DNA from: a virus
Strand: one strand, 5' to 3'
Length of the DNA stretch: 26,681 nucleotides
IMG/VR virus record: IMGVR_UViG_3300030098_002874
Location: 1 to 26,681 of that record
In this document: piece by piece, positions 1,076 to 26,681 of the stretch
Position numbering within the stretch: the stretch's first letter is position 1
Layout of the letters: every line of letters starts with the position of its first letter
Program-made: the position numbers and the translations under genes
Notes under the pieces: model-generated
Databases searched by the model: none
Told to the model about the DNA's origin: nothing
What the model saw: the letters and a program-made list of their open reading frames with translations, nothing else

Positions 1076-1246
1076 ATGGAGATTTTAAAGTTGTTTACAC
1101 GAAACCAAATACATCTTATAATATTCCTATTCGCTACATTTATATTAATTAATGTTGTAGGATGTGAAGGTTGGTCTGTTATGGGGTATTCTCTTGATAA
1201 ATCACAAGATAGCACGCAAGTAATAATTGAAGAGATAAATGAATGA
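1076..1246 (+). CDS. Small lipoprotein, candidate outer-membrane spanin (Rz1-like)
   Basis: 56 residues. The N-terminus has Lys5 and Arg9, a hydrophobic core LIIFLFATFILINVV (14-28) and the lipobox VVGC, so signal peptidase II would cleave before Cys30 and leave a 27-residue lipidated peptide. The residue after Cys is Glu, not Asp, so outer-membrane sorting is plausible in a Gram-negative host. Short lipoproteins of this size in phages are usually outer-membrane spanins (Rz1 type) acting in the last step of lysis; that role is inference. The TGA at 1244-1246 lies 8 bases into the next gene, which encodes a membrane-anchored coiled coil, a possible inner-membrane spanin. No Shine-Dalgarno is seen before ATG 1076. 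A competing 34-codon ORF starts at ATG 1048 in another frame, so the exact start is uncertain. Confidence 0.55.
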   Translation: MEILKLFTRNQIHLIIFLFATFILINVVGCEGWSVMGYSLDKSQDSTQVIIEEINE

Positions 1247-1559
1247 AAAACCAAATACCGCTAGAAGTTATAGGACTACTATTCTTGATGATAACGCCAT
1301 TGTTTCTATTAACCTTAAATGGCTTGGTCAAATTGCAGTTCTTATTGGAATGTTGGTATATGGTTATTGGCAAATTGAAACACGAATACGAAAATTGGAA
1401 GACAAAATGGTTGATGCAAATCAACAAATTGGAAACTTACTTGACAAACATATCGTGGAAGAAAAAATTGAAAGAGAAGAATTAGCAGAAAAAGTGGCTT
1501 TTTATGAAAAAGAATTTAATATCAATCCTTTAAGTTGGGGTAAAAGGAAAAAGAAATAA
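1239..1559 (+). CDS. Membrane-anchored coiled-coil protein, candidate inner-membrane spanin or holin-like
   Basis: 106 residues. A polar N-terminus of about 27 residues precedes one transmembrane helix (about 28-46, WLGQIAVLIGMLVYGYWQI), then a heptad-like charged helix to about residue 92 and a basic tail ending KRKKK. One N-terminal helix plus a long coiled coil is the architecture of Rz-type inner-membrane spanins, and the gene overlaps the small lipoprotein gene by 8 bases. Similar small proteins are common in marine phages without assigned function. GAAGAG at 1229-1234, four bases before the ATG, supports this start. An out-of-frame 80-codon ORF (1243-1485) is probably a shadow. The spanin role is inferred from topology and neighbour only. 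Confidence 0.65.
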   Translation: MNEKPNTARSYRTTILDDNAIVSINLKWLGQIAVLIGMLVYGYWQIETRIRKLEDKMVDANQQIGNLLDKHIVEEKIEREELAEKVAFYEKEFNINPLSWGKRKKK

Positions 1560-1876
1560 TGGATTTTTTAGCAGTTTATGGCGAAGCGGGAATGATTGGA
1601 GTTGTTGGAGCAATGTTTGTATATTTGGTAGTGCAAATGTCGAATAAAGCGGCTAAGCAACAAGAAACTTTAGAAAATTTAAAAGTTGAAAATAAAGGTC
1701 AAAGTGAAACTTTAGAAAACATGGAAGGCATGATTATAAAATTAATTGGTAGGTGGAATCAATCTGATGACAAATTAGATAGAAAATTTGATGCTTTAAC
1801 TAAAGAAGTAAACGATTTAGACAATCAAATATCAGAAGTAAAAGGTTCTTTAAGTAGAATAAATGGAAGGCATTAA
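1559..1876 (+). CDS. BhlA/UviB-like holin candidate
   Basis: 105 residues. A short N-terminus leads into a hydrophobic segment (about 9-27, containing GVVGAMFVYLVVQM), followed by lysines and a long coiled coil (KQQETLENLKVENK, then DKLDRKFDALTKEVNDLD). The order 'G...FVYL..., basic turn, ET-NL helix' resembles BhlA/UviB holin-like proteins, which are one-helix membrane proteins with a charged tail. The coiled coil is longer than is usual in that family, so an inner-membrane spanin or another membrane-anchored structural protein is also possible. It starts in the TAATG of the preceding gene and ends in TTAATG. Confidence 0.55.
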   Translation: MDFLAVYGEAGMIGVVGAMFVYLVVQMSNKAAKQQETLENLKVENKGQSETLENMEGMIIKLIGRWNQSDDKLDRKFDALTKEVNDLDNQISEVKGSLSRINGRH

Positions 1877-10094: not shown

Positions 10095-10814
10095 ATGACT
10101 ATAGCTGAAAAATATTTATCTAAACATGGAAGATATGGAGATACAGAAATAGTAGAAACTTCAGATGGAAGCCTTTGGCATGTTAGTAATGATGAAAAAA
10201 GATTAATAGAATTATATGGAAAACATGGTGAAGAATTAGTAAATAATGTTGGTTCTGGTACTATTAATCCAACAACAGGTTTAGAAGAAAAATGGGCATG
10301 GTTAATACCAGCTGCTGCTGTTGCACTTAGTTCAATTAGTGGTGCCGCTGCTGGAAAAGCTCAAGAAGATTCTGCTAGAACGCAAGCTGGTTATGCGCAA
10401 AAAGGAATAGATATAGTTGGTGATTCTCTTTCAGCTTTGTCTGAATCTACAAGAAAAGCTAGGGAAGGCATTACAGCTTCATTTGAAAAAAAATTATCTG
10501 ATTTTTCAGATACATTTGGATATAAAAAACAAGGATTAAGAAAGTCTATTGAAAAAGCAAAAAGTGGAACTGGCTTTGCAAATGTTCAAATAGGAGATGA
10601 GGATTTAGAAATGTTAAATAAATCTATAGAATCTGGAATGGGAGATTTGCAATTTGCATATGGTTCTGAAATGGGAAAAGAAAGTGCTAGAGAAAAAATA
10701 GAACGTTCTAAATTGGAAAGTGAAAAACTTAGATTTGAACAAGAAAAAGAACTTCTTAATAAACAAGCAAATTCTTGGTATCTTGGTAAAAATATAATGA
10801 ATCTTTTTAGTTAA
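10095..10814 (+). CDS. Putative internal virion protein with hydrophobic segment (T7 gp14-like position)
   Basis: 239 residues. The first 65 residues include the segment DGSLWHVSNDEKRLIELYGKHGEE. A hydrophobic stretch follows (about 69-87, WAWLIPAAAVALSSISGAA), then long helices to the end, with charged coiled coil ERSKLESEKLRFEQEKELLNK. A membrane-active Ala-rich segment plus coiled coil is the design of small internal virion proteins that form the channel for DNA ejection (T7 gp14 type); no clear sequence match is claimed. It follows the previous gene by two bases. Confidence 0.5.
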   Translation: MTIAEKYLSKHGRYGDTEIVETSDGSLWHVSNDEKRLIELYGKHGEELVNNVGSGTINPTTGLEEKWAWLIPAAAVALSSISGAAAGKAQEDSARTQAGYAQKGIDIVGDSLSALSESTRKAREGITASFEKKLSDFSDTFGYKKQGLRKSIEKAKSGTGFANVQIGDEDLEMLNKSIESGMGDLQFAYGSEMGKESAREKIERSKLESEKLRFEQEKELLNKQANSWYLGKNIMNLFS

Positions 10815-10818
10815 AGTT

Positions 10819-12012
10819 ATGGCAAATTATTACGGAGCTGATGTATTAGCATCACTAAATAGAATATTACAATACAGGCAACAGCGTGAACAAACAAAAG
10901 TGTCTGAATCTTTATCTATGTTAAAAATGGCTCAAGACCAAAGAAATTTAGATAGGTCTTTTCAATTAGAAGAACAAAAATTGGGAATAGGTGATAGCGA
11001 ATTAGCTAAGTCAGTAAGGGAAAATAGAGCATTAAATAAAAGAGTTTTAGAATCTCAAGTTTTAACTAGTGAATTTGCAGCTGAACCAGAACAACTTGAT
11101 TTACAAAGAAAAGCAACTTTAGCTGAAATAGACAAAATTACAGCTCAAACAGAAGAAGCTAGAAGAAAAACATTTGATGCTAGGTTGGATGAATTAGATA
11201 CAATTGCTGAAAGAAATCATGCAGAAATTATGGAAAATGTTATTGGAGCTTTTGGAGTACAAGAATCTATTATAAAGGCTCAAGAAGGAAGTGGTATAAC
11301 GGGTACTTTTGAAAAAAGTTCTTTGTATAAAAATTTAAAAAATAATACATCAAGAAAAGAAAGAATGGAATTTAGTAAAGAAATACAAAATAGTATTTTT
11401 GGAATGGTTCAAACTGAAGGAAAAACTGATGATTTTGAAAATATGTTAATTAATTATGTTAGTGCTAGTATGAAATTAGGCAGTCCCAGATTTGGAAAAA
11501 ATTTAAATGAAAGAATGAAATTTCTTACATCTGAAGAAAAAAAATATAATAAAATATTTAGAGCTGGTTTCGATGAACCTACACTAACAAGATTTCAATC
11601 TTTAGGTGTAGAATTATTAAGAGCAAAAGAAATAGAAAAAAATATACAAAATGAAAGAATTGAAGCTGGAACTGGAGATTATAAATTTGATATAAATAAA
11701 GTTTCTAATATAAAAATATCACCTCAAGATACTCAATTACTAGATGCAGTTATTAGGGGAGGTGAAGATGTTGATAATATTCCACCTTCTTATATGGGGG
11801 CTCAAGGAATGAAAACTATTCAACAAAGTATTTTAAATAGTGAAAAATCTCTCGACCAATTAGCTGTTTTGTATAATAAAGCTATGCAATCTAAAAATCC
11901 AACAGATAAACAAAAAGAATTAATTGATGAGTATGACGATAGAAAAGATGATATTGTTTCTCAAATAAGGATTCAAAAAAGAGTTCTTAATAGAATACGT
12001 TCTGGTATTTAA
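10819..12012 (+). CDS. Putative internal virion protein, mostly coiled coil
   Basis: 397 residues, almost entirely helical. The N-terminus (YYGADVLASLNRILQYRQQR) leads into a long Gln/Glu/Arg-rich coiled coil (about 20-140). A central globular helical part follows, then a second coiled coil near the C-terminus (DEYDDRKDDIVSQIRIQKRV). No membrane helix or enzyme motif. By order and style it would be the middle-sized ejection protein (T7 gp15 position), directly before the giant protein; its stop overlaps that gene's ATG (TAATG). Function inferred only from context. Confidence 0.5.
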   Translation: MANYYGADVLASLNRILQYRQQREQTKVSESLSMLKMAQDQRNLDRSFQLEEQKLGIGDSELAKSVRENRALNKRVLESQVLTSEFAAEPEQLDLQRKATLAEIDKITAQTEEARRKTFDARLDELDTIAERNHAEIMENVIGAFGVQESIIKAQEGSGITGTFEKSSLYKNLKNNTSRKERMEFSKEIQNSIFGMVQTEGKTDDFENMLINYVSASMKLGSPRFGKNLNERMKFLTSEEKKYNKIFRAGFDEPTLTRFQSLGVELLRAKEIEKNIQNERIEAGTGDYKFDINKVSNIKISPQDTQLLDAVIRGGEDVDNIPPSYMGAQGMKTIQQSILNSEKSLDQLAVLYNKAMQSKNPTDKQKELIDEYDDRKDDIVSQIRIQKRVLNRIRSGI

Positions 12013-15000
12013 TGCCTTTAAATCCTCAAAAATCGCTATATAATTCATTGTTTGACGATGAAGATAAGACTATAACTCCTTCTTGGACTCCAGAAGAAAT
12101 AATAAACTATTATAGTGAAATAGATACATCTAGAGCTAAAAAAGCAATAGGTGGAAATTCAAGAAGCTTAGCAAATCCAACTGGAGTTACTTATTCAAAT
12201 CCAAATCAACCAAATCAAGAAAAACCACCTTTACCTAATGATTTGAATCCACAAACAATGCTTGACATTATGGAACAAGCTGATATTCTTCAAGAAGAAG
12301 ATTCTCCAATTCAAGAAGAAAAATCTTTACTTTATAAAACTGGAGAAAATCTTGATGCGATTATTTTTGCAGGTTTAGATGCTTTTGTAGATACTGCAAC
12401 ATTTGGAACAAAAGATTTTCTATTAGAACAAACTTTGGGAAGAATAGACCCCGAAGAATTAGAAGAATATAGAGAAAGAACTGAATCTAGAAAAGAATTA
12501 GCTGCTGGTAAAGTTAGTTCAGCTATAGGTTCATTTGCAGGTTTTGTTAAAGGCCTTCCTTTTAAAGTAGCTGGAAATATTGTTACAAAAGCAACTCTTC
12601 CAGTTGCTAAAAAAATGTTTAAGAAAAAAATAGGAGATAAAGCTTCTACTGAATCAACAAAGCAAATAACTAAAGCTGGTGAGCAATGGGCAGCTAAAGA
12701 AGGTTTATCTAAAAATGCTATAAAATTAGGAACTTCAAAATATACTCAAGTCGCTTCTAAAAGTAGAATGCACCCTATTCTAAAGCAAAAAACATTTAAT
12801 AAAGCGTTAAAAGAAGAATCTGAAGTATTAATACAATCTCAAATGGCTTTAGGTAAAATAACTCAAGCTGAAGCTTCTATAATGAGAGGTATGTTTGACA
12901 CAATGATGAAAAAAGGAGTTCCAATACAAAACATGCTTCAATTAGGTCAAGTAATGTATGGAACTGGGAGAAGAGGTAGATTTGTAGGTCAATTATTAAA
13001 TGATGCTTTTGTATATAGTTTTATTGATGGAGCATTTTCTCTCTCTAATCAATGGAACTATGCAAGAGAGCAAGGTCAGTCTTTTTCTGATGTTTTTTCC
13101 AGTCAACAACTTTTAGAAGATACTTTATTTGGAATGTTAACTGGTGTTGGATTATCTGGTGGAGCTGCTATATTTAAACCATTAGGTAAAATGGCAAATT
13201 CAAGAGTTGATTTTGCATCAGCTATAAATACTTGGAGACAATCAAATCCGTATAAAGGAAAATCAAGACAACAATTAGCTAAAGATTTATTTTATTTCGG
13301 AAATCACGCTTGGAGAAACGGAAAGCCAAGTCAGGTTGAATTTGGTAAAGGAAAGTTTAAAAAAGAAATAGATTTAACTCAAGGTAAAACTCCTTATGAA
13401 AATGCTGAAGATGGAATTAAATCTTTACATAAAGAATTAACACAAGTTCTTGGTGGTAATTATAAAAAAGAAGTTACAGATTATCTTTTAAAAGAAAAAA
13501 ATCAATACGCTAAAGATTTATTAAGTGAATCTTTAAAAGAACCATTTAGAAGTTTTGCGCAGGAATGGCCTAGAATGTTATATGGAGGTATGGTTTTTAA
13601 CGCAGGTATGATAGCCCAAGACGCTTGGAGCACTGGTGAATTATTAGGAGGATATGGCGAAGATTATGACGGGTGGGATGTATTTACAAATTTAATGATA
13701 GGTGCATATACTCAAAGAAAAGACAACACTTCTACATGGGACATGAATACGGATATAAATAGGATTCGTGAAGGTATTAAAATATTAGGTGGAGACCCAG
13801 AATGGAAAAATTCTAATTTTTATATAGATGAAAATTTTCCAATTGCTAGGTCTAGATTTGACAAAGCTTCAAGAAAAAAAGAATATCAAGATTGGTTAGT
13901 TGAAAATGGATTGGCTACAAACGATGAAGCTGAAGGTAGAGAAATGGATGCTTTTGCAGTCCCTGCTGGTGAAAAAAGTGTAAAAATTTCTATGGAAATA
14001 GAAGGTCAAGATTACGGAATATTGCAAGAACTTGTTACTGCGATGAACTCAGACTTCCATACTTCTAAAACATTAGATGCAATAACAGTTAAAGAAGCAA
14101 ATGCAATGCTTAAAAAGTATGAAGAAGTTCATGGTATAAAGAAAGATGACATGAAAGGACTTCGTGATTTGCAAGAAGAATCAACAATAAAAGCAACTGA
14201 AAATTTTGAAAATGAAATGCTTGGTATTATTAAAAAAATTGTTGATGTAGCTGATAAAGAAAGTGAATTTGATGACTTAGCTGGGTTCTTTACAACAACT
14301 ACTGGTGATAAGATTATTACTCCACAAACAATAATAATAGACAAAAAATTAAAAGATAAAATTAGAAAAGGTGATTTTGAATTTCTTGGTTCTGGAGATG
14401 ACGCTGTAAATGAAGTTGAAAAAATGAAAATGAGTCTTCAATCTATTATTAAATCTTTATCAAGTGGATTAGAGGCTATTCAAACAAGTTCTAATGCAAA
14501 TGTAATGGAACTAAAAAACGAAGCATCTTTAAGAAAAATATATGAAATAGTTAGAAATTCAGAACAATCTGTAAATAAAACATTTGAAATGAAAGACCTT
14601 GTCTCTAGGGAATTTAGATATTCTGATTACATGGATTATTTACCGAGTATGGTAAAAAACAAAGCAATTTCAGTTTCTAAAAGTATTCAAGAAATATTTA
14701 GTCCAGAATTTAATGGAAGACAAAAATTGTTAGGAGCTTTGCAAGGAGCTGGCCTTATAGATAAAGATGGGAATATTATAAAAAGTGTAAAACAAATAGA
14801 ATTTTCTAAAGATGTCAAAGATGATGTTTCAAAAGAAGAACAAGCTTCTATGAAAAGAGTATTAGGTCAAATATTGACAATGCAATCTTCTATAAATATT
14901 CCAGACAAATTAACATCTAGCAATACAATTGTAAATAAAGATGGATTTGTTAGATTAAAGAAAACTTTGCAAGGTTTTGGATTAGATGTAAAGAAATTAG

Positions 15001-18000
15001 ATAGTTTTTATTACGAATACCTTATCAATATACTTAACACTAAAAGATTTAAAGATTCAAGATTATCTGGAGGTCAAACAGATTTTGTTTTACAAGCTGT
15101 TTCTTCTGGATTTGGAGAAAATAATTTAAAGCCAGAAGGTACTTCAAATAATTTTATTTTAAAAAGAATTGAAATTGTTGGTAATGATGATTTTTCAACG
15201 AAATACAATAATTTTATATCTGAAATTTCAAATAAGTCTGGTGGATTAGTGGAAATATCAAAAGAAACTATTGATGTCGGAGTTATGGAAATCCCTATTT
15301 TACAAGCTGAAATGAAGAAATCTGCATTAGGTAGAAACACTTATGATTCAAATGTTGCACTTGGGACTGTTCTTGAAAAACTTACTCAAAATGGTTTGGG
15401 ATTTTATTCAGATAGAATTAAAAATTATATTGCACTTGCCCCAGAAATTAATCAAGCAAAAATTCAAAATATGCTTTTTGATTTAGGTGTATTAAAAATA
15501 AATGAAGATAGTGGAAGAATTGAGGTAGAAGAAAAAGAAATACTTACTGAAGATTATTGGAAAAAAGTTGATAAATCATTAAGACAATTTGGATACACAG
15601 AAGGCTTTATTAATCAAAAAATTTCTGAACAAAAACAAATATCGAAACCAAGATTTTTAAATGATTCTAGTGACCATGTTGCAAATCCATCAATGAGCGT
15701 TGGTGAATTTTTTAGAAAATATAAAGTAATAATTAATGATTCAGATGGAAATTTTAAAGAATACAGAGATTATTCTTTAATGAGTCAAGAAAATCAAATA
15801 AAGAAATTTGATGAATTAACAGAAAACTTTCCAGAAATAGAAAATCCAAATGCTATTCTTAAAGGAAATGCTATATCTAATTTAATTAATAATTTAGTTG
15901 CGACAAGAATTATTACAGATGCGGATGGTAATAAAAAACAAGAAACTATACTATATGAAAGTATGGGGAGAAGATTAAGAAATCAAATATTAGAAGATGC
16001 TACTCAAGTATTTTTTGGAAGAAGAAAGCAAGTAGAAGTTCCAGTTGTTGAAGTAGCTGGTACTGGTATAAAATTTACAGACAAGCCTGAATTTCATCAA
16101 ACTAATCCAATATATGAATTATTTAGAGATTTAAAAATTAAACATTATTTATTTGATAATAATGTATTAATAAAACCTTTTAATCCAGAAAATTCAAGAA
16201 TGGAACCTAGGATTGTTAATCTTACTTCTAAAGCTGAGAATTTCCCAGAATGGATGCGAAATGAAGTAAAGATAGTAGAAAATCAAATAATAAATGATTT
16301 GCTAAATCATTCAATAGTAGATGGTATATTAAAAGACAATAGAATAAAAGATAAAGAAGATGAAGTTTTTGAATCTTTAGGAGTTCAAGATGATGTTGTT
16401 TCTATTGGAAAAGACCCCTTAATTAGATTAAATCTTGTTCCAGAGTTTGATAGTATAATTATAACAGGGCAAGATAGAAAAATTCTAGCAGAAGAGTTTA
16501 ATAATTTTTACGAAAGAAATAAAGATTTATATGAAGATACAACAAATATAGAAGCTTTATTAGAAAGAATAAAAGACACAGACCAAGATAGGTATTCCGC
16601 AGATTATGATTATGAATCAATAGCAAGATTGTTAGTAGTCGAAAGAATGTTAAGAAGTGATTCTAATATAAAACTTAAAGAAATTCTAAATAATAATGAC
16701 GCTGATGAAATTGATAAAGTTATTAGTAGGGTAAAACTTGTAAATACAAAGAATTTTATACGAGGTGATTCTGATTATTATTTATCATTAGCAGAGGCAA
16801 GGTTATTAATTAATGATGGTGATGAAGCTGGCAATCTTTTAAAAGATAGAATATATAATAAGAAAGGTAAGTATTCTATTGCTATTTGGGATGATGATAA
16901 TAATGCAAATATAAGAAATGAAGTTGAGCAAATTATAGAAAAATATAAAGATATTTACGATTTAGAAAATTGGTCTTTTGAAAACATAGGAACGGCTCAC
17001 GAAGATGCTAGTGCATTTGATAGTATATCTTTCTTAACAGAAGATGCTATGATGGAATACCATACATTAATGGGACATAATCCTTATTCTAAAAATGCAA
17101 TAAAACCAGTTATTTCATCTATGGGTGAAGGTAAAGCATTATTACTTGGTAAAACTTTGTTTATACATGATTCAAGATTAGAAAATTTTCTTACAGCAAA
17201 TAATTTAGATATTTTACTTACAAAATCTGGGGCTAAAGTATATGATGAAAAATATATTGATGGAAATTCAAACAAAGATGATGAATCTATATTAAATATA
17301 TCTCTTGATAAATTAAAAACAACTAGTAAAAATATTTTAAAACCAAATCAAATTAGATTTGTAGATATAGATGCAATAGGATTAAAACCAGAAAAAGATG
17401 CTTCTATTACATCTGCTAAAGATTCACCAGCTGATGCTAATTATCATAATGCTGAAGAAGGATATTTAAAAATACAAGAAATGCAAAAAGATATATCTTT
17501 TGCGATACAATCAATAGAAGATATTGTTGGAAGTTCTGTCGCTATGAGAGAATTTATGATGGATGAATTGTTACCAAATGGACAAATGCAAAATGATGAT
17601 GGTATTTCTTCTTTACAAACAATTAACAATATGTATCTTTTCTTAGAGCATCATGCTAATGCTAATCCTATGAGCTTTAGTGACAATCAAACAAAAAATA
17701 AAATTTTTAATACATTTATAGATAGATTAATAAATAACACTAGGTCTATTACAAATAGAAGTTCTGGAAGGCATGGTGAATTAAGTAATGTAACAAGTAA
17801 TAGATATGGTGGTCAATCTTATATAATACAAAATGCTCAGAGATTTTTAGATAGAAATGGAAACATGAGAAATCATAGATTATTGCCTACATTGGTAGAT
17901 AAACAAGGCAATATGTTAATGAGAGGTGAGTTAGCTCTTCCATTTCACGAACAAGATACAAAACTTGGAGACCTTGAAGGAAGAACTATAAGAATAGTTG

Positions 18001-20966
18001 ATAATGAAAAAATTATGACTGTTGATGAATTTCTTGCTGATTATAAAGAAAGAGTTGATGAATCAGATAAAAAGAACGAGCTATCTTTATCTGTTCAAAA
18101 TTCCACACTTGGAAGTGTACACAACTTTTTAAAAGATGCTAACAAAGCAACTGGTAGAAAATATCAAATTGGTATTATTTCAAGAAGAAATCCAAGAACA
18201 AGACCTAATGATATTACATTGCTTGGATTAGCTGGATTTTTAGATAAGGGATATGGTAATTCTACAATGGTTAATAGTCTTGATATAGTAAACATATATG
18301 AAGGTGATTATGATGCTGATAAGGTAGATTATTTCTTTGCTCATAATGATTATATGTTTGACCATATTGAGAGAACTAATAAATATTGGGTTCAAGGAAT
18401 AGACCCAAAGAAATGGAAAACCCCAGCTTCGTTTACGTTTTTACAAGATACAGAAACTCAAAGTGAAAAGATTATAGAATCTATGGGCAATGCAGATGCT
18501 TATAAAAAAATGATAGGCATTGTTCAAAAAACTCCAAGACAAATAAATTATTTAGATATGCTTTCTAATAAAAATTGGACAGCTAGCCCAGAAGAATCAG
18601 AAGCTTGGTCAAATTATAGAAGGGAAAATAAAGATGGGACTGTTGATGGGCCTGGAATTTTATTTAGAACAACAGATAGTAAAAATGGTGATGAAAGAGT
18701 AATTACCATTGATAGTAAAAACATAGATTTTTTTATACGAAGTGCTTTAGAAATGCAATATGTTGTGGATGGTAAAAATAATTTAAATCCAAATATTGCA
18801 AATGATATATTTAATTGGAAAGATAATTTCTTATTTCCATTAATAAAACAATCAGAAAGACCAGATAATTTATCATTTAATCAAAGAAAAGACATCCAAG
18901 AAAAAGGAACTTCTAATAATAAAAGAATAAGAATATTTTCAAGAATGGTTAAAAAAGATGGTAAGTGGACAGAAGATGTAAACATTGAATTAACTAAAGC
19001 TGAAAAAGAAATTATTAAATCCTTAATGGATAATTACAACAAAACAATACTACAAGCAACTGGTAAAGATGTTTATGATGGGGCTGATGTTAGAAGAATG
19101 TCTTATGATGATTTTATGCAAGCTGGTCAGGGATTTATAGATTTTCATAAAGATATTCAAAATAAAGTGTATAGAAAATTAACTAAACAAAGAAAATTAA
19201 GCGGTAATGATTTTAAAGAATTAAAAAGAATATTTGGAGCTGTTACTGAAAAAAAACCACAAAAAGGGAAATGGTATAGAAGAACATTCTTAAACAAAGA
19301 CCCTTTTGAATATGTTCGTAATAATGCAGAAAGATTTATTAGTGAAGAAACAACAAATCCAAATGGAACATATATAGACCAATTAATTGTTCAATTAGCT
19401 AGAAAAAATCATTTTGAAGAAAAACAAGATTTTAGATTACTAGGAGAAGATAAAATACAGCTTGATGATTGGTATAATGATATGATAATGGAATCGTATA
19501 AAGAATCAGCTGACAAACATAATGAAAAATTAACTAATGCAGTTTTAAGCCATAATAAAAAAGTTGGAAGTGTTGTTTATTTAAGTAGAAAAATAAACGA
19601 AATTGCTAGGTCTAAATACAAACAAGAATGGAAAAATAAAAAAATTAAATCTTTAAAATATGTTATAAATAAACTTCAATCAGAAATAAATACTGAATAT
19701 GGAAAAAGAGTAAATATAAAAGACCCTCAAAAATATGAATTTTTAGATTTAATTGCAGAAGGAAAAGAACTAACAGAATCAACAATATATTATCATTCTA
19801 TACATTCTTTATTAAAATCTGAATTAATAGGTGGTTATAAATTTGATAATTTTTATCAAATGCTTGAAGGTAATGCTAAAGATGATTTGGCAATGTTTAA
19901 AGATTTGAGAAGAAAAATTTATGGAGACCATGGAAGTATAAAAGATATACTTGAATTTGGAGCTAAAACAGTAATTAAAGATAAAGAATTAAAAAAGCAA
20001 TTAGAAAGATATGATACTGATGATTTTTATAAATGGCAAGTGGAATTTTTAAAAGAAAAAACTGAACAACATGGATTAGAATTTATGTTAGCTTTTATGT
20101 CTCCTTCGTTAAATAGAAAAAAGATTGGAGTTTTTAATAATAGAGTAGTTCCTATTCCATATGTTGATTCAAAAAGATTTAGAATGGGAATAAGAGTTCT
20201 TACTGAAATTGCTTTTAAAGATTTTTCATCTGAAGATAATCCTATAAGAGTAGCTAGAAAACTTGCTGGTGAAGCAGAGGACAAAACAATACCTTCTCAA
20301 ATATTATTAACAAAATTAATTGAATCAGAAAATCATTATAGAGGCTATTTTGATAGAAATCACAATCTTTTTACTTCAAGAGAAAATGATGTAAGACAAT
20401 ACGGATTAGGTAAATTTGATTCTTATTTAGAAAGAAAGCTAAGTTCTTATACTGATATAAATTGGACAAGGAATATGTTTCCAAGACATACATTAAACAT
20501 AATGAATAATTCAGTTCTTGATTTTTATCAAGAAACAGCAAATTTAGCTGGTGATGAATTTTCTATTGGATTTCAAAAATTTCTTGATGAAATAGATTTA
20601 TTAAATAGAGACTTAGCTACAAATGTTTACTTAGACCCTTATGATTTTATAGAGAGAAGGCTTAAATTAGACAATATGTATATAAAAATGGTTCAAACTG
20701 AAATAAATGCAGTATCGGAATCAAAATCTGTTGTACCAATACAACAACATGATTCTTTTAAATTATCAAAAGGATTTAAATATTTACAAAGAGCAGCTGC
20801 TGATAAAGGTCTTAAATTAGAAGTAAATGAATCTAGTTTAATTTCAAAATATAATAAATTGCAACAACTTGAAAGAGAACTCAACACAGCTCATGACGGA
20901 AGATTACTTGACCATACAAATAAAGATGCTGAAGATTGGGCTGAAATGAGTGGGTGTATTAAATAA
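12012..20966 (+). CDS. Giant single-chain double-psi beta-barrel RNA polymerase, probable virion RNA polymerase
   Basis: 2984 residues. Two blocks resemble the catalytic barrels of multisubunit-type RNA polymerases in single-chain form (YonO and crAss-like phage enzymes). The beta'-like block has a basic RxP motif (Arg2059-Asn-Pro2061, within SRRNPRTRPND) and, 38 residues after that proline, YEGDYDADKVDYFF, whose Asp2099, Asp2101 and Asp2103 form the DxDxD metal site. In E. coli beta' the same RxP-to-NADFDGD gap is 33 residues. The beta-like block upstream (about 1660-1745) has EDASAFDSISFLTEDAMMEY, KPV (Lys1698), LLGKTLF (Lys1714) and a closing LLTKSGAKV (Lys1742), resembling the paired-lysine barrel. 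Residues 1-600 are helical with hydrophobic patches (about 373-393, 522-545), like ejected virion proteins. The last 870 residues are unassigned. Position beside internal virion proteins suggests packaging and early transcription in the host; catalysis is inferred from motifs. Confidence 0.75.
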   Translation: MPLNPQKSLYNSLFDDEDKTITPSWTPEEIINYYSEIDTSRAKKAIGGNSRSLANPTGVTYSNPNQPNQEKPPLPNDLNPQTMLDIMEQADILQEEDSPIQEEKSLLYKTGENLDAIIFAGLDAFVDTATFGTKDFLLEQTLGRIDPEELEEYRERTESRKELAAGKVSSAIGSFAGFVKGLPFKVAGNIVTKATLPVAKKMFKKKIGDKASTESTKQITKAGEQWAAKEGLSKNAIKLGTSKYTQVASKSRMHPILKQKTFNKALKEESEVLIQSQMALGKITQAEASIMRGMFDTMMKKGVPIQNMLQLGQVMYGTGRRGRFVGQLLNDAFVYSFIDGAFSLSNQWNYAREQGQSFSDVFSSQQLLEDTLFGMLTGVGLSGGAAIFKPLGKMANSRVDFASAINTWRQSNPYKGKSRQQLAKDLFYFGNHAWRNGKPSQVEFGKGKFKKEIDLTQGKTPYENAEDGIKSLHKELTQVLGGNYKKEVTDYLLKEKNQYAKDLLSESLKEPFRSFAQEWPRMLYGGMVFNAGMIAQDAWSTGELLGGYGEDYDGWDVFTNLMIGAYTQRKDNTSTWDMNTDINRIREGIKILGGDPEWKNSNFYIDENFPIARSRFDKASRKKEYQDWLVENGLATNDEAEGREMDAFAVPAGEKSVKISMEIEGQDYGILQELVTAMNSDFHTSKTLDAITVKEANAMLKKYEEVHGIKKDDMKGLRDLQEESTIKATENFENEMLGIIKKIVDVADKESEFDDLAGFFTTTTGDKIITPQTIIIDKKLKDKIRKGDFEFLGSGDDAVNEVEKMKMSLQSIIKSLSSGLEAIQTSSNANVMELKNEASLRKIYEIVRNSEQSVNKTFEMKDLVSREFRYSDYMDYLPSMVKNKAISVSKSIQEIFSPEFNGRQKLLGALQGAGLIDKDGNIIKSVKQIEFSKDVKDDVSKEEQASMKRVLGQILTMQSSINIPDKLTSSNTIVNKDGFVRLKKTLQGFGLDVKKLDSFYYEYLINILNTKRFKDSRLSGGQTDFVLQAVSSGFGENNLKPEGTSNNFILKRIEIVGNDDFSTKYNNFISEISNKSGGLVEISKETIDVGVMEIPILQAEMKKSALGRNTYDSNVALGTVLEKLTQNGLGFYSDRIKNYIALAPEINQAKIQNMLFDLGVLKINEDSGRIEVEEKEILTEDYWKKVDKSLRQFGYTEGFINQKISEQKQISKPRFLNDSSDHVANPSMSVGEFFRKYKVIINDSDGNFKEYRDYSLMSQENQIKKFDELTENFPEIENPNAILKGNAISNLINNLVATRIITDADGNKKQETILYESMGRRLRNQILEDATQVFFGRRKQVEVPVVEVAGTGIKFTDKPEFHQTNPIYELFRDLKIKHYLFDNNVLIKPFNPENSRMEPRIVNLTSKAENFPEWMRNEVKIVENQIINDLLNHSIVDGILKDNRIKDKEDEVFESLGVQDDVVSIGKDPLIRLNLVPEFDSIIITGQDRKILAEEFNNFYERNKDLYEDTTNIEALLERIKDTDQDRYSADYDYESIARLLVVERMLRSDSNIKLKEILNNNDADEIDKVISRVKLVNTKNFIRGDSDYYLSLAEARLLINDGDEAGNLLKDRIYNKKGKYSIAIWDDDNNANIRNEVEQIIEKYKDIYDLENWSFENIGTAHEDASAFDSISFLTEDAMMEYHTLMGHNPYSKNAIKPVISSMGEGKALLLGKTLFIHDSRLENFLTANNLDILLTKSGAKVYDEKYIDGNSNKDDESILNISLDKLKTTSKNILKPNQIRFVDIDAIGLKPEKDASITSAKDSPADANYHNAEEGYLKIQEMQKDISFAIQSIEDIVGSSVAMREFMMDELLPNGQMQNDDGISSLQTINNMYLFLEHHANANPMSFSDNQTKNKIFNTFIDRLINNTRSITNRSSGRHGELSNVTSNRYGGQSYIIQNAQRFLDRNGNMRNHRLLPTLVDKQGNMLMRGELALPFHEQDTKLGDLEGRTIRIVDNEKIMTVDEFLADYKERVDESDKKNELSLSVQNSTLGSVHNFLKDANKATGRKYQIGIISRRNPRTRPNDITLLGLAGFLDKGYGNSTMVNSLDIVNIYEGDYDADKVDYFFAHNDYMFDHIERTNKYWVQGIDPKKWKTPASFTFLQDTETQSEKIIESMGNADAYKKMIGIVQKTPRQINYLDMLSNKNWTASPEESEAWSNYRRENKDGTVDGPGILFRTTDSKNGDERVITIDSKNIDFFIRSALEMQYVVDGKNNLNPNIANDIFNWKDNFLFPLIKQSERPDNLSFNQRKDIQEKGTSNNKRIRIFSRMVKKDGKWTEDVNIELTKAEKEIIKSLMDNYNKTILQATGKDVYDGADVRRMSYDDFMQAGQGFIDFHKDIQNKVYRKLTKQRKLSGNDFKELKRIFGAVTEKKPQKGKWYRRTFLNKDPFEYVRNNAERFISEETTNPNGTYIDQLIVQLARKNHFEEKQDFRLLGEDKIQLDDWYNDMIMESYKESADKHNEKLTNAVLSHNKKVGSVVYLSRKINEIARSKYKQEWKNKKIKSLKYVINKLQSEINTEYGKRVNIKDPQKYEFLDLIAEGKELTESTIYYHSIHSLLKSELIGGYKFDNFYQMLEGNAKDDLAMFKDLRRKIYGDHGSIKDILEFGAKTVIKDKELKKQLERYDTDDFYKWQVEFLKEKTEQHGLEFMLAFMSPSLNRKKIGVFNNRVVPIPYVDSKRFRMGIRVLTEIAFKDFSSEDNPIRVARKLAGEAEDKTIPSQILLTKLIESENHYRGYFDRNHNLFTSRENDVRQYGLGKFDSYLERKLSSYTDINWTRNMFPRHTLNIMNNSVLDFYQETANLAGDEFSIGFQKFLDEIDLLNRDLATNVYLDPYDFIERRLKLDNMYIKMVQTEINAVSESKSVVPIQQHDSFKLSKGFKYLQRAAADKGLKLEVNESSLISKYNKLQQLERELNTAHDGRLLDHTNKDAEDWAEMSGCIK
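17004..17246 (+). other. Beta-like catalytic barrel segment of the giant protein
   Basis: Codons about 1665-1745. Order of marks: acidic DA-x-x-F motif (Asp1665), LTEDAMMEYHTLMG, Lys1698-Pro, a Gly/Lys stretch with Lys1714, then LDILLTKSGAKVY with Lys1742. This spacing resembles the first barrel of crAss-like phage polymerases, where two lysines contact the RNA 3' end region. Which lysines are the catalytic pair needs a structure comparison. Confidence 0.6.
18171..18350 (+). other. Beta'-like catalytic barrel segment with DxDxD metal site
   Basis: Codons 2054-2113. RRNPR at 2058-2062 is followed by TLLGLAGFLDKGYGN, SLDIVNIYEG and the triad Asp2099/Asp2101/Asp2103, coded at 18306-18320. The middle position carries Ala and the following residue is Lys2104, as in the DFDxDK form seen in phage enzymes rather than DFDGDQ of cellular beta'. 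Confidence 0.75.
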
Positions 20967-23800
20967 TGGATTGTAATAAAGCAACAAAAAAATCTCAATT
21001 AATAAATGCAGTAAATACATGGCTTGGGGATAAAGAAACTTTAAGTAATTTTAAAAATCCTCATGCAGCTATGTTTAAAATGTGGGAATCTGAATTTTAT
21101 GTTCCATTAAAATGGGCTATATTAGATGAAGGTGAAAAACTTTTAACACCTGGAAAAATAAAACAATTTACTGAAAGTTTATATAGATTAAATAAAAGAG
21201 TAAAGCAAGGCGACATTGCAAGTAATGATTTTGCAAAGTTGTTTTGGACTGGTACTACTTTTGGTAAAAGAGACCCAGCAATAGGTTCAATGCTTTCAAG
21301 ATTGCAAGATGTATCTGGTCAAGATAAAGTTAGAACAATGAAATCAGCTGAAGACTTTAAAGAAATAACAGATATGATTAAAGTTATATCTAAAGTAACC
21401 GGGCCTATTGATAAAGCTATTTTTAATAGGGATGTAAAAAAATTAAGAAAATTAGATTTAAATCTTATTAAAGCTATTGACAAACAAAACAATAGAGAAA
21501 TTTCAACTGCTAGAAAAGAATTATCAGAATTTATAGATAGCAATAAAAAATTAAAAGCATTTGATGATTTTATTGTATTAATTGAAACTGGTATGCCAGA
21601 TATATTAATGAAATATAGGGAAAAAATTGAAAGCGGTGAATTTAGACCTATGAGAATTAAAGATTCTAAAAAATTCCTTGAAAAAGTTGATAACGGTGAA
21701 GCCTTATTAAAAATAAATGAAGTTAAATTTTTAGAAAAAATTATGTCTGAATTAGGCATGGATATAAAATATGCAGACCCTTTAATGAAATATAATAACA
21801 TGATGGATAATCAGTATGATAATTTAAAAAAGGGAATAAATTCCGTTATTAATAGTAAAATAAAAAGATTAAAATTTAACAGAGGAATAGAAAGTGAAAA
21901 TGTTAAATTATTAAAAGAAACAAGAGAAAGATTAAATAAAGAATTAATGCCTAGATATGAACAAGGGTTTTTTCCTCATTATGTAAGGGATTTAAATGCT
22001 ACTTTTATGGAAGGATTGTTGCCAAGATTAAAAAAATTAGATTCTTCTGGTGAAGATTTATTATTAAGAAAAACATCTACTCTTAAAGAAGATATACAAT
22101 CAATAAATGAATGGGTTACTAATCACGCAAAAAGTAGAAAACAAGAATATGCTCCAGAATATTCAAGAAACTTTTTTGATGTTGTTAAAGGATATATAGA
22201 CGATATAAATCATTTTAATACTTCTGCTTTTCTAGAAGAAGCTTTTATGGATGCAAGACTTGATGTATTAAAAATGTATAGAGATGGCGATAAAGGCCCA
22301 ACTCAATATATGACTAATGTTTCAGATTTTATTGCAGATATGCATAAATCAGCTAATGGTGATACTAAAATGTCAGAATCAGCTCAATTAGCAATGAAAA
22401 CATTACTTGCTTTTGAATTTACATCTAAACTTGGATGGAATGTTCGTGGAGCAGCTAGAAACACAACTCAAAGAGCTTTGGATTACATAAGATTTGGATT
22501 TACTAAAAGTATTGCAGCGGTTAATTACTTTGATAGTATTAAAGGTGAAGGTGGAGTAAGGGAAGCTGATAAAATATTAGATGAAGCTGGATTTTTATTT
22601 AAAGAAATAACACCAGAACTTTTAGAAAGTGGCATTAAAGAAAAACCTAGTATGTTTAAATCTAGGTATATGGATGAAGATGGTAACATACAATATAAAG
22701 AAGAACATTTTGGTCATAAAATAGCAGAAGGTATGAGTTGGGTTTCAAAAAAATCATCTGTATTGCACAGAGCTGCTGAAAATTGGAATAGAAAACATAC
22801 TTTTAAAGTTGCTTATGGAAGTTTACATAAAATATTAATGGAAAGTTCTGAATTTAGGTCTCAAGTAGCAAATAAAAAGCAATATTTAGAAACTAGAGCT
22901 AATGAAATAGCTACTAATTATGCAAAAAATATGGTTTTGGCAAATCATTTTGATTATGCTGATTATGCTAAATCCAAACTTATGAGAGGCGATATTAAAT
23001 CATTAGGGAAATATGGAAACATAACAAGATTTATGTTTCAATTTCAACATTATGGAATGGAATTTTTAGAAAGAAATACTTCTATTTATAAAGAAGCTTC
23101 TGCTGATGTTAGGTCTGGTGCAAGTTTTGGTGAAATGCAAGGAGTCCACCAAGCAATGAAAATGGGAATGGCTTATGGGCTAGCTCCTTTAATTGCTTAT
23201 ATTGTTATGGGATTAGATGTTGATAATTTAGTAGAGCATGATACAGCAAAAAGAATTTCACAATGGGGTACTTTATTTTCTAATGACCCAGAAAAAATTA
23301 ATGAAGCTTTTTATGGCAAAGGGCCAATTATTAGTACATTTGGAGGCCCTCTTCTTGGGGACATGATTGACCTAGGAATGTCTATAGGCATGATTAATGA
23401 AACGGAACCTGAAGCTTGGCATGAGTATTTATATGCTGTTCAAGGATATAAGTATGACCATGACTTGACACACACAGGAAGCAGAACTAAAATGCTTAAT
23501 AATCTTATTTCTATGAGTTCATTTGGCAAAAGAGCTTACAATAGACATATTCCAATGTTATTTGAAAACGATAGAAGCCCAATATTAAATTCTTTTAGAG
23601 TTGGACTTAATGAACTATCATTTTATCCTACTTCTAAAATTAATTTACCATTTAACCTTTATGAAGGAAAACCTGTTTTTGATATAGCTGGTGAAAAATG
23701 GCTAGATGTAACGGGGACAAGAAGAAAAAAGAAGTCTGGTGCAAAGCCTGTTAATTATAGAATGTTAAAGTACATGAGGGAATTGGATAAAAAGAAGTAA
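20966..23800 (+). CDS. Large helical protein following the polymerase, probable ejected virion protein
   Basis: 944 residues, mostly helical and Lys-rich. The N-terminal half (about 100-330) is coiled and highly charged. Around 485-510 is SKLGWNVRGAARNTTQRALD, resembling the 'N-R-A-N-TQ' segment of domains found near the C-terminus of large polyvalent phage proteins (LPD38-like; from memory). A hydrophobic helix (about 733-749, GMAYGLAPLIAYIVMGL) and a Gly-rich stretch (STFGGPLLGDMIDLGMSIGM) could insert in or line a membrane. Basic C-terminus (GTRRKKKSGAKP). No nuclease, lysozyme or methylase motif was found. It starts in the giant gene's TAATG and is the last gene before the terminator-like hairpin, so it is probably made and packaged with the polymerase. 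It may be a partner subunit or a DNA-ejection protein. Confidence 0.55.
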   Translation: MDCNKATKKSQLINAVNTWLGDKETLSNFKNPHAAMFKMWESEFYVPLKWAILDEGEKLLTPGKIKQFTESLYRLNKRVKQGDIASNDFAKLFWTGTTFGKRDPAIGSMLSRLQDVSGQDKVRTMKSAEDFKEITDMIKVISKVTGPIDKAIFNRDVKKLRKLDLNLIKAIDKQNNREISTARKELSEFIDSNKKLKAFDDFIVLIETGMPDILMKYREKIESGEFRPMRIKDSKKFLEKVDNGEALLKINEVKFLEKIMSELGMDIKYADPLMKYNNMMDNQYDNLKKGINSVINSKIKRLKFNRGIESENVKLLKETRERLNKELMPRYEQGFFPHYVRDLNATFMEGLLPRLKKLDSSGEDLLLRKTSTLKEDIQSINEWVTNHAKSRKQEYAPEYSRNFFDVVKGYIDDINHFNTSAFLEEAFMDARLDVLKMYRDGDKGPTQYMTNVSDFIADMHKSANGDTKMSESAQLAMKTLLAFEFTSKLGWNVRGAARNTTQRALDYIRFGFTKSIAAVNYFDSIKGEGGVREADKILDEAGFLFKEITPELLESGIKEKPSMFKSRYMDEDGNIQYKEEHFGHKIAEGMSWVSKKSSVLHRAAENWNRKHTFKVAYGSLHKILMESSEFRSQVANKKQYLETRANEIATNYAKNMVLANHFDYADYAKSKLMRGDIKSLGKYGNITRFMFQFQHYGMEFLERNTSIYKEASADVRSGASFGEMQGVHQAMKMGMAYGLAPLIAYIVMGLDVDNLVEHDTAKRISQWGTLFSNDPEKINEAFYGKGPIISTFGGPLLGDMIDLGMSIGMINETEPEAWHEYLYAVQGYKYDHDLTHTGSRTKMLNNLISMSSFGKRAYNRHIPMLFENDRSPILNSFRVGLNELSFYPTSKINLPFNLYEGKPVFDIAGEKWLDVTGTRRKKKSGAKPVNYRMLKYMRELDKKK

Positions 23801-23851: not shown

Positions 23852-24043
23852 TTATGCTAAAGCTTTTGGTTCTGTTTTTTCTTTATGCTCTAATAATTTA
23901 ATTAAAGCACTTGTTGAATCAAGTAAACCTTTTAATAATTTTATTTTTTGTTTATCTATTTTTTCTGATTTATAACTATCTATATCTTTTAACAAAGCAC
24001 TTATTTTATATAAATAATTTGCATATTGTTCTGTATTTTTCAT
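23852..24043 (-). CDS. Small helical hypothetical protein
   Basis: 63 residues, almost all helix and rich in Lys, Leu, Ser and Glu (YANYLYKISALLKDIDSYKS, LLKGLLDSTSALIKLLEHKE). No cysteine, membrane segment or motif. GGAGG (24051-24055 on the + strand numbering, read on -) lies 7 bases before its ATG, and its ATG overlaps the stop of the resolvase gene by 4 bases (ATGA). Last gene of the - strand operon. Function unknown. Confidence 0.6.
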   Translation of the reverse strand: MKNTEQYANYLYKISALLKDIDSYKSEKIDKQKIKLLKGLLDSTSALIKLLEHKEKTEPKALA

Positions 24044-24519
24044 TTTGATTCCTCCATTTCTGTGTACATTCCGTACATTGTTATTAATACTGCATCAGCA
24101 TTCCATAGCGTTGCAGGTTTTTCTGTATAAATTGATGCTATTTCTTTTAGTTTATTTTTTCTATCTTTTTTTATTTTAGGTAATTTAAATTCCATTTTAT
24201 CTTGCCAAAATTTCATCCATTTTTGTGGTGATACTTCTACTATTTTATTTATTCCTTTTATTGAATTAAGTATTCCTAACCATGCTCCGTAATTAACTCC
24301 AAACTTAAACAATGAACTTCTTCCATCGTGAGGCATTGCATGAACTTTTTCTATATATACTATTGCTTCTTTAGATTTATATGCATTTAAAGCCATAGAA
24401 ACAGTTAGCCTTCTACCACTTATTAGATTGTGGCATTTATGCGTATGTATATCTTTTTGTTCTGAATTAGTAAAGCATAATGCTCCACTAGCACCAGGGT
24501 CTATTCCTATTATTGTCAT
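24040..24519 (-). CDS. RuvC-like Holliday junction resolvase
   Basis: 159 residues. RNase H-fold resolvase motifs are present in order: IIGIDPGASGAL with Asp7, VYIEKVHAMPHDGRSSLFKF with Glu57, the VEVSPQKWMKFW block near 94-105, and NADAVLI with Asp142. Asp-Glu-Asp are the usual metal ligands of RuvC-type enzymes, and the 'EKVHAMP-x-S-F-FG-x-YG' segment is typical of phage versions. It would cut branched DNA made during replication or before packaging. AAGGA lies 6 bases before the ATG. It overlaps the upstream gene by 4 bases, with the helicase one gene further upstream, consistent with a replication/recombination operon. Confidence 0.88.
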   Translation of the reverse strand: MTIIGIDPGASGALCFTNSEQKDIHTHKCHNLISGRRLTVSMALNAYKSKEAIVYIEKVHAMPHDGRSSLFKFGVNYGAWLGILNSIKGINKIVEVSPQKWMKFWQDKMEFKLPKIKKDRKNKLKEIASIYTEKPATLWNADAVLITMYGMYTEMEESK

Positions 24520-24815
24520 TGTGCATCCTTTCTATGTGAATATTTATGTGGACTTTTAACATATTTCTTTTTATATGTTCTTGTTGGTTTAACTGGTGGT
24601 TCATACTTGTCTCCTAATATTTCTCCATCGAAAACTTTTATTACTTGGTGAAGTAGTTCCGATTCCGACTTTATCATATTATTGTTTTTGTATTGACTAC
24701 AACCTTTACTCATTATTTCTTGAGGTATAGGTTTTGGGTGCCCCTTTTTTGCTAAAGAAAACCAATAGCATTTGGAGGAGACTTCAAAGAAGCACCCATA
24801 ACAACTTTTATACAA
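24516..24815 (-). CDS. Small Cys-rich protein with TTG start, possible zinc binder
   Basis: 99 residues. It starts with TTG (24815-24813) and shares 8 bases with the helicase end; no in-frame ATG or GTG lies close upstream, and the next internal Met would remove the cysteines. The N-terminus carries Cys5, Cys8, Cys16 and Cys39 (CYGC, KCYWF, KGCSQY) around a PKPIPQEI segment, a four-cysteine layout that could hold one zinc ion. The C-terminus is basic (TRTYKKKYVKSPHKYSHRK), suited to DNA or RNA contact. Its position between helicase and resolvase suggests a replication accessory role, but no family is assigned. Confidence 0.6.
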   Translation of the reverse strand: MYKSCYGCFFEVSSKCYWFSLAKKGHPKPIPQEIMSKGCSQYKNNNMIKSESELLHQVIKVFDGEILGDKYEPPVKPTRTYKKKYVKSPHKYSHRKDAQ

Positions 24816-26121
24816 CGTTATCTTTTTCCGCCATGTTTGAGTTCATATAGAATTTACACCTACCTCCATTAAATCCTACTGCATGAGTCCCTATTTTTCC
24901 GTACCTACTTTTAGAAACTATGATTTCACTCTTATATGGATTAAACTTTTCACTATCAAAATTATGTCCATAGAATACAAACATAGCTGATTCAGCAGTT
25001 TGTTCGATTACACCTGACTCTGCATAATCACTCATACGAGGTCTAGGGTCAAATCGTTTTTCTATTTCTCTATTTAATTGCGATACAAGTATTGATGAAC
25101 AATCTTCTTGTTTACATATCCATTTATATTCTTGCATTATTTTTTCTATCTCGAACCTTCTTCCTTCTTTAACACCTTGAACATCTATTAACTGTATGTA
25201 ATCATCTATAACAACATCAGGTTTATGCTTTGCTATTTCTCTCAAGCAATCATCTAATGTTCTTACATTGTCATACATTAAAAAGTTTTCATAGTTATGT
25301 TTCATCTTTTCAGATACTAATTCAAACTCTTCTTTACTAGTTTCAGATAGGTCGTTTCGTCTTATATCTCCGTATTTTAATCCATTTGATTCCATTACCA
25401 CCATCTTCTTCAGCATTTCCGTATTACTCATTTCTCGATTAAATAACATTACTCTATATCCTTGTTCAATCAACCCTCTAATAATATTTATTACAAGAGT
25501 TGTTTTACCATGGCCGGGCCTACCGCCTAGTACAGTTATTTCTTTACGAGTCATTCCACCTGCAAATGTATCAAGATGTCCAAGATTAAATGGTATAAGA
25601 TTAGAATCTTCTTCAACTGTTGCTCTCATTTCATCAACTAATACATTTATATCTCTTTGTTTAGATGGTTGTATTTGTCTTAATTCATCAATCAATTTGC
25701 TATGCTTTTCTAATATACTCCCTACGTTTTTATAATCTTCATAACTTGCATTTAACAAAGCTTCTGCTGATTTAGCTGTTTCTCTTTGTATATATTTTTC
25801 CCATACTATTCTTGCATATTGTTCTATATTTTGTTTACTAGCTACACTTTCAGTTAATCCTGTTATGTAGTATGCTTTACTATCTCCATGTATATCTTTT
25901 ACTTTGTTACATAAAGTTACAAAATCTATATCTACTTTATCTTTATATAACTCTGACATTGATTCCCATATTATTCTATTGTCTGTATTGTAAAATGCAT
26001 CATTATCTCTTATCCAAGCCATTGCTACTTCTTGTTCTCTTTCGCCTCCTTCTATAATGCACCCAAGTAAAGCTTCTTCAGCCTCTTGAGCGGAAGGGGC
26101 TAATTTTATTTCTTTAGCCAT
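24808..26121 (-). CDS. dnaB: Replicative DNA helicase, DnaB family
   Basis: 437 residues, normal length for a phage DnaB. The N-terminal domain (about 1-110) has APSAQEAEEALLGCII, the usual opening of DnaB. A linker follows, and then the RecA-like domain: Walker A GGRPGHGKTT (199-208, Lys206), glutamate-bearing FNREMS (228-232), Walker B PDVVIDDYIQL (301-311), SSILVSQLNRE (342-352) and the RPRMSDYAESGVIEQ motif (360-374), with SKSRYG (403-408) near the usual arginine-finger position. It unwinds DNA at the replication fork as a hexamer. AAGGAG lies 5-6 bases before the ATG. No separate primase or helicase loader is seen in the window. Confidence 0.93.
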   Translation of the reverse strand: MAKEIKLAPSAQEAEEALLGCIIEGGEREQEVAMAWIRDNDAFYNTDNRIIWESMSELYKDKVDIDFVTLCNKVKDIHGDSKAYYITGLTESVASKQNIEQYARIVWEKYIQRETAKSAEALLNASYEDYKNVGSILEKHSKLIDELRQIQPSKQRDINVLVDEMRATVEEDSNLIPFNLGHLDTFAGGMTRKEITVLGGRPGHGKTTLVINIIRGLIEQGYRVMLFNREMSNTEMLKKMVVMESNGLKYGDIRRNDLSETSKEEFELVSEKMKHNYENFLMYDNVRTLDDCLREIAKHKPDVVIDDYIQLIDVQGVKEGRRFEIEKIMQEYKWICKQEDCSSILVSQLNREIEKRFDPRPRMSDYAESGVIEQTAESAMFVFYGHNFDSEKFNPYKSEIIVSKSRYGKIGTHAVGFNGGRCKFYMNSNMAEKDNVV

Positions 26122-26132
26122 TTTGTCTCCTT

Positions 26133-26681
26133 TTAAAATAAACTTGCTTGATTAGCAGGTTCGTAATTAATTATTAAATATTCTTTTCTTTCTTTTTTCT
26201 TAGCTTCGTCTGTTGCTCCAGCGTATTTTAAATCTATGGTTCTAACATCGTAATCTTTATAGAGTTCTGCAACTCTTTCATCAGCGTCATAACTTATCAT
26301 AAATTTTCCACCTTGCTTATGTATCTTATCCACTTTTTCTTTTAATCTTAAATGGTCATCAGCATTAAAATTATGTTGATAATACTTATTACCTTTTTCA
26401 TGGGCAACAAAGTATGGTGGGTCTAAATACCAGAAGTCTCTTTTTCTTGGTTCATACTTGTCTATTAATTCAGCAAAGTCTAAGTTTTCTATTGTTGCTC
26501 CACCTATCTTTTCTCTCGAATATTTAAATTCTTCTTCCCAGTTTTTATTCCAATCTTTTATCATAGACATTGGTGTGTGAATTAATTTATTAAAGCTGTG
26601 TCTTATGCAATAGAAATACTGAGCAGCTCTCATTGGGTCTGGTATCTCTATTTCTCGTTTTTCTTGAACCTCAACCTTGTA
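26133..26681 (-). CDS. dam: DNA adenine methylase, D12/Dam class (partial, N-terminus beyond the window)
   Basis: The frame runs open to the window edge, so only the C-terminal 182 residues are here; the internal Met at 26633 is not a convincing start because the frame continues upstream with 16 more codons. The catalytic motif IV is DPPYF (WYLDPPYFVAHEKGNKYYQ), followed by HLRLKEKVDKIHKQGGKFMISYD, the usual strand order of Dam-like enzymes, and a C-terminal KEYLIINYE strand. It would methylate adenine N6 using S-adenosylmethionine. No partner restriction gene is visible. A role in protecting phage DNA from host nucleases or marking replication is possible. The gene ends 11 bases before the helicase ATG; the helicase Shine-Dalgarno lies in that gap. 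Confidence 0.87.
   Translation of the reverse strand, partial: YKVEVQEKREIEIPDPMRAAQYFYCIRHSFNKLIHTPMSMIKDWNKNWEEEFKYSREKIGGATIENLDFAELIDKYEPRKRDFWYLDPPYFVAHEKGNKYYQHNFNADDHLRLKEKVDKIHKQGGKFMISYDADERVAELYKDYDVRTIDLKYAGATDEAKKKERKEYLIINYEPANQASLF

Follow-up and report, generated by a model that had tools for sequence, protein, structure and literature searches.

What is the function of a single protein of 2984 residues, encoded by an uncultured phage and resembling nothing in the common sequence libraries? The gene lies in IMG/VR virus record IMGVR_UViG_3300030098_002874, of which the 26,681 nucleotides analysed here are called the window, and occupies positions 12012-20966 on the plus strand. 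It is a real gene: all 2984 codons are open from ATG to stop, the ATG overlaps the stop of the preceding gene, the end overlaps the start of the next, and each related contig that was mapped has a full-length homolog, of 2813-2989 aa. We propose that its product is, with high probability, an RNA polymerase of the two-barrel superfamily that works as a single chain on a DNA template and is packaged in the virion.

An earlier note on this DNA had read the protein as carrying both catalytic barrels of a multisubunit-type RNA polymerase on one chain, and the motifs it listed are where it placed them. RRNPR (R2058-R-N-P2061-R) is followed by GDYDADK (G-D2099-Y-D2101-A-D2103-K) with 38 residues from Pro2061 to Asp2099, and upstream there are KP at 1698-1699 and SGAKV, which contains Lys1742. 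One of the listed motifs, the acidic DA-x-x-F (D1665-A1666), is not the feature that is conserved; the family consensus at that site is A-H-x-x-V-S-G-F-D-S-I. On its own the RxP...DxDxD arrangement is weak evidence, because RxP-x(30-45)-DxDxD is present in 54 of 2000 shuffles of the protein (2.7%); its conservation across relatives makes it more than chance. Sequence libraries are silent. Neither the single sequence nor the family finds a match in Pfam, PHROGs or the PDB sequences, and tblastn of the whole protein against 50,697 phage records, phi14:2 included, returned no match.

Relatives are nonetheless plentiful among uncultured phages. Scanning IMG/VR for the codons of GDYDADK gave 82 stretches, and 58 of the ORFs from the fetched loci are members of the giant protein's family, which aligns over most of its length at 25-44% identity, two near-identical contigs excepted. 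In all, the family occurs in about 60 other uncultured phage contigs. A profile scan in which the pattern LLxGKTLF was also used gave 69 loci, and D-Y-D-x-D is retained in 68 of them, with A, F or Y as x. Conservation was assessed in 27 diverse relatives (31-88% mutual identity in the core). P2061, R2062, K1698, K1714 and K1742 are invariant in this set, as are D2099, D2101 and D2103, although the invariance of this triad is biased because the relatives were collected through GDYDADK codons; R2059 is kept in 26 of 27, while position 1795 is lysine in 23 and arginine in two. Conservation peaks in two blocks, residues 1655-1750 (AH...S..DSI, KP.ISS.G, LL.GKTLF, SG.K) and residues 2054-2130 (R.PRTRPND ... 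EGDYDADK.DY). In one family member (L068) 111 extra residues, specific to that lineage, stand directly ahead of the second block's barrel, after query residue 2020. A contig scan of 84,980 bacterial and archaeal genomes found no relative, so the family looks viral, and searches of the open literature turned up no description of it.

We modelled residues 1540-2400 (16629..19211, plus strand) with AlphaFold using the 27 relatives, and obtained a pLDDT of 79.9 and a pTM of 0.82. In Foldseek searches all ten PDB matches at E < 0.001 are two-barrel RNA polymerases, namely phi14:2 gp66 (6vr4, E 4.9e-8) and nine chains of QDE-1 (E 2.8e-5); behind these rank maize RDR2, PhiKZ nvRNAP, and polymerases of cells and of ASFV. 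This is the fold comparison that the earlier note had proposed for residues 1600-2200, and its outcome supports the note's reading. TM-scores to the solved structures are low (0.23-0.28), presumably because the accessory domains and their arrangement differ. In a library of viral structures the two best matches are much closer (E 2.7e-48 and 1.1e-32, TM 0.78 and 0.69, 20-23% identical); both are the second pieces of long proteins that are nameless in the tables, and behind them come many crAss-like phage proteins among others. A model of the N-terminal residues 60-1160, of low confidence (pLDDT 70, pTM 0.47), had no significant structure match in the PDB, which argues that the polymerase matches of the core are not a generic effect. 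The model thus supports the view that the middle third of the protein folds like a single-chain RNA polymerase of the crAss-like/RNA-interference kind.

Profile comparison in windows places both barrels within this core. A whole-core hhalign fails against the single gp66 sequence and against a 52-member crAss profile; plain sequence routes fail altogether, and only structure and the comparison of that crAss profile with 100-residue windows of the family profile linked the core to known polymerases. The DPBB-B of gp66 scores best (25.6) on the window holding the segment that ends in SGAKV, against at most 18.3 for windows without it, and this marks a lysine-bearing, beta-like double-psi barrel at about residues 1655-1800 (16974..17411, plus strand), which contains the first conserved block. 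The gp66 DPBB-A matches, at 23.6-23.9, only where a window includes residues 2071-2086, and scores at most 17.6 elsewhere; together with the strands of the model this marks an aspartate-bearing, beta'-like double-psi barrel at about residues 2052-2110 (18165..18341, plus strand). Both alignments to gp66 are in the correct register, LGLAGFLDKGYG with LQIVGILPEAMG and ...LDILLTKSGAKV with ...IGESIVLDGVKV, and therefore Lys1742 (17235..17237) corresponds to gp66 Lys1065. Lys1795 (17394..17396) is the leading candidate for a second active-site lysine, matched by inspection to gp66 Lys1106. In the second barrel the RxP motif R-N-P (residues 2059-2061, 18186..18194) precedes the predicted catalytic triad D2099-Y-D2101-A-D2103 (18306..18320) by 38 residues, as compared with 37 in gp66. 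One chain thus carries two double-psi barrels with the lysine barrel first and an RxP before the DxDxD of the second, the order seen in gp66, which supports the idea of a single-polypeptide polymerase. Further downstream, a 38-residue helix of the model (H608-645; residues 2147-2184, 18450..18563) with the sequence YKxxIGIVQK may be the bridge helix, though its profile match to GKSGVGI of gp66 is weak.

These results bear on two other ways to read the motifs. The first, that DYDAD is an EF-hand-like loop or a chance motif in an unrelated virion protein, could draw on the frequency of the motif among shuffles and on stray EF-hand matches in one or two of the 27 relatives (E 0.005-0.06). We reject it on fold and conservation: it is contradicted by the match in fold and by the two barrels, each of which aligns in register on its own, the N-terminal control has no significant match, and the model has already refuted it unless the model itself is wrong. 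We give it almost no weight. The second is that the polymerase fold has been kept while its activity was lost, leaving an internal structural or ejection protein. Such a history would suit a huge protein that is virion-associated by position and has drifted in sequence from all known polymerases. However, few residues of the chain are as well conserved as those of the triad, RxP and the barrel lysines, while the rest varies at 25-40% identity, and we regard the loss of activity as very improbable. Points against our own proposal are the missing sequence-level family match, the whole-core hhalign failure, the weak bridge-helix match, the low TM-scores and the failure to find early promoters.

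The surroundings of the gene suggest when and where such an enzyme would act. Relatives of 50-54 kb are collinear. Their genes run from terminase, a P22-type portal (PF16510, 7.9e-45), major head protein, tail fibre and spanin through a 780-1153-aa protein and several smaller proteins to the giant gene and then a 900-960-aa partner, which is convergent with genes for a Holliday junction resolvase, DnaB, a methyltransferase and a Cas4-like exonuclease. In the window the resolvase, DnaB helicase and DNA methyltransferase genes lie at 24040-26681 on the minus strand. The giant gene always ends the virion block of portal, head, tail and spanin genes, and the replication genes are on the opposite strand. 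The 944-aa partner (20966..23800, plus strand), whose start overlaps the stop of the polymerase gene, adjoins the giant gene in all eight contigs compared. It has two hydrophobic segments toward its C-terminus, near residues 730 and 788, and no family or database match; we consider it a candidate ejection protein that is likely co-ejected with the polymerase. The two genes directly upstream (239 aa and 397 aa; 10095..12012, plus strand) are, by position and sequence, candidate internal virion proteins, and the 239-aa product (10095-10814) has one hydrophobic helix, WAWLIPAAAVALSSISGAAAG. Small lysis-type genes lie within the tail gene block at 1239-1876 (plus strand), and one of them matches an Rz-like spanin (phrog_739, E 1e-4).

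Because the phage has a P22-type portal and no evident tape measure protein, its tail is probably short. The two ends of a contig of 50,339 bases (G004; L162, L164) share an overlap of 588 bp with 94% identity. This overlap, which would fit a closed or terminally redundant genome in two variants, suggests a genome size near 50 kb. By TerL and portal searches the phage does not belong to Crassvirales: the best TerL matches listed are about 25% identical and come from non-crAss phages, the portal matches are two non-crAss phages, and the contigs, at about 50 kb, have a different gene set. A k-mer search of intergenic DNA for shared promoters gave nothing specific, and no early promoters were found. 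Searching 19 related records for a T7-like polymerase (PF00940) was likewise empty, but the positive control of that search was silent too.

Among the genes scanned in a 54-kb relative (G003; L159-L161) no DNA polymerase or primase was recognised, and the host DNA polymerase is therefore probably used. The same result makes it conceivable that the giant protein stands in as a primase or PolD-like DNA polymerase that starts replication of the injected genome, the more so as two-barrel folds include PolD. However, the significant PDB matches of the core are RNA polymerases with no PolD among them, the gene sits in the virion block away from DnaB, and borrowing the host enzyme is simpler; we rate a replicative role a shade below the loss of activity considered above.

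We return to an RNA polymerase carried in the virion. Around the core, the chain is arranged in the manner of the coliphage N4 vRNAP, whose central polymerase lies between an injection part, N-terminal and helical, and a packaging part at the C-terminus (PMC5512222). The N-terminal region (residues 1-1539, 12012..16628, plus strand), a proposed injection part, is mostly alpha-helical up to about residue 720, and hydropathy shows moderately hydrophobic segments near residues 117, 171, 324 and 372, with segments at like positions in relatives. The C-terminal region (residues 2401-2984, 19212..20966, plus strand) is conserved along the family and, by the N4 layout, would be the packaging part. 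By analogy with that plan we infer packaging, injection and early-gene transcription. In this scheme the C-terminus would hold the polymerase in the capsid, and the helical N-terminus would help the chain to pass out of the head via the portal and to enter the cytoplasm along with the first DNA. There Asp2099, Asp2101 and Asp2103 would hold the catalytic magnesium, and Lys1742, probably together with Lys1795, would contact the incoming nucleotide or the RNA end. Once injected, the polymerase would transcribe the early genes on the replication side until host or late transcription takes its place.

An active enzyme need not be packaged. It might be made late and transcribe late genes inside the cell like a non-virion polymerase, of which P23-45 gp64 is an existing two-barrel example, and the case for packaging is one of gene position and layout. 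However, a late-operon protein of 2.8-3.0 kaa that carries a large helical extension and is accompanied by a partner gene follows the pattern of the N4 and crAss virion polymerases, and among single-chain enzymes a known non-virion one (8f72 chain) is short, with 593 aa. We consider this alternative unlikely, if less so than any of the others, and prefer the virion-packaged polymerase.

It is somewhat more likely than not that these proteins form a widespread family, not described before, of single-chain two-barrel RNA polymerases that are injected from the virion and are distinct from the crAss and P23-45 families. With them, compact phages of about 50 kb with short tails would begin transcription independently of the host RNA polymerase. 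This would be another independent N4-style assembly, built around a two-barrel core. What is new is a sequence-orphan family; the kind of enzyme, a single-chain two-barrel RNA polymerase, is known, and unannotated relatives are already in structure libraries. Single-chain two-barrel polymerases link cellular RNA polymerases with those of RNA interference, and few phage families of them are known. The present family escapes sequence libraries and occurs across diverse uncultured phages, and it contributes a lineage of its own from which to study the minimal two-barrel enzyme and how virion polymerases arose. If the protein is active, crAss-like, jumbo and long-tailed Thermus phages would not be the only ones with injected two-barrel polymerases. 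Its core of about 860 residues is of an expressible, testable size.

How, then, does the protein compare with known systems? Among polyvalent injected proteins with LPD domains, that of Desulfofustis phage LS06-2018-MD01 (1577 aa) is likewise giant, and its gene comes last in the virion block and converges on the replication genes, but no DxDxD and no polymerase domain were found in it. In that phage (OP947158; L258:15927-20660) a similar gene slot at the same genomic position shows a sub-threshold LPD38 and holds the polyvalent protein instead of a polymerase. Coliphage N4 gp50, a virion protein, shares the large size and the tripartite layout, and its phage is short-tailed, as is presumed here; its catalytic core, however, is a T7-like right hand unrelated to the two-barrel fold, whereas the present protein has no Pfam match and a two-barrel fold. 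In Thermus phage P23-45 a vRNAP is fused to the tape measure protein (PMC10770324). This gp96 is also a two-barrel polymerase with a DxDxD triad within a giant virion protein, but there the polymerase forms the N-terminal part of a tape measure protein of 5002 aa and the phage is long-tailed, and the nvRNAP gp64 of the same phage shares the triad but is structurally a poor match to the core (E 0.7). QDE-1 and the RDR polymerases of RNA interference share the single-chain two-barrel fold and give the second-best PDB matches, but are cellular RNA/DNA-templated enzymes without giant virion extensions.

The closest known counterpart is phi14:2 gp66 (6vr4; GenBank AGO48955), a giant virion protein (PMC7886860) that is encoded among the giant virion proteins of its phage. 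It is a giant single chain with the lysine barrel before the aspartate barrel, its barrel profiles align in register, and it is the top PDB fold match. However, no sequence is alignable beyond about 40 barrel residues, the triad is DYDAD here and DFDID in gp66, the barrels lie near residues 1655-2110 of 2984 as against about 1060-1370 of 2180, and the phage genome is about 50 kb as against about 100 kb for phi14:2. With similarity to the crAss-like (Crassvirales) RNAP family failing across the core and a genome that TerL and portal searches place outside Crassvirales, neither the crAss RNAP nor the N4-like definition describes the protein, and we therefore file it as a new family of single-chain two-barrel RNA polymerases.
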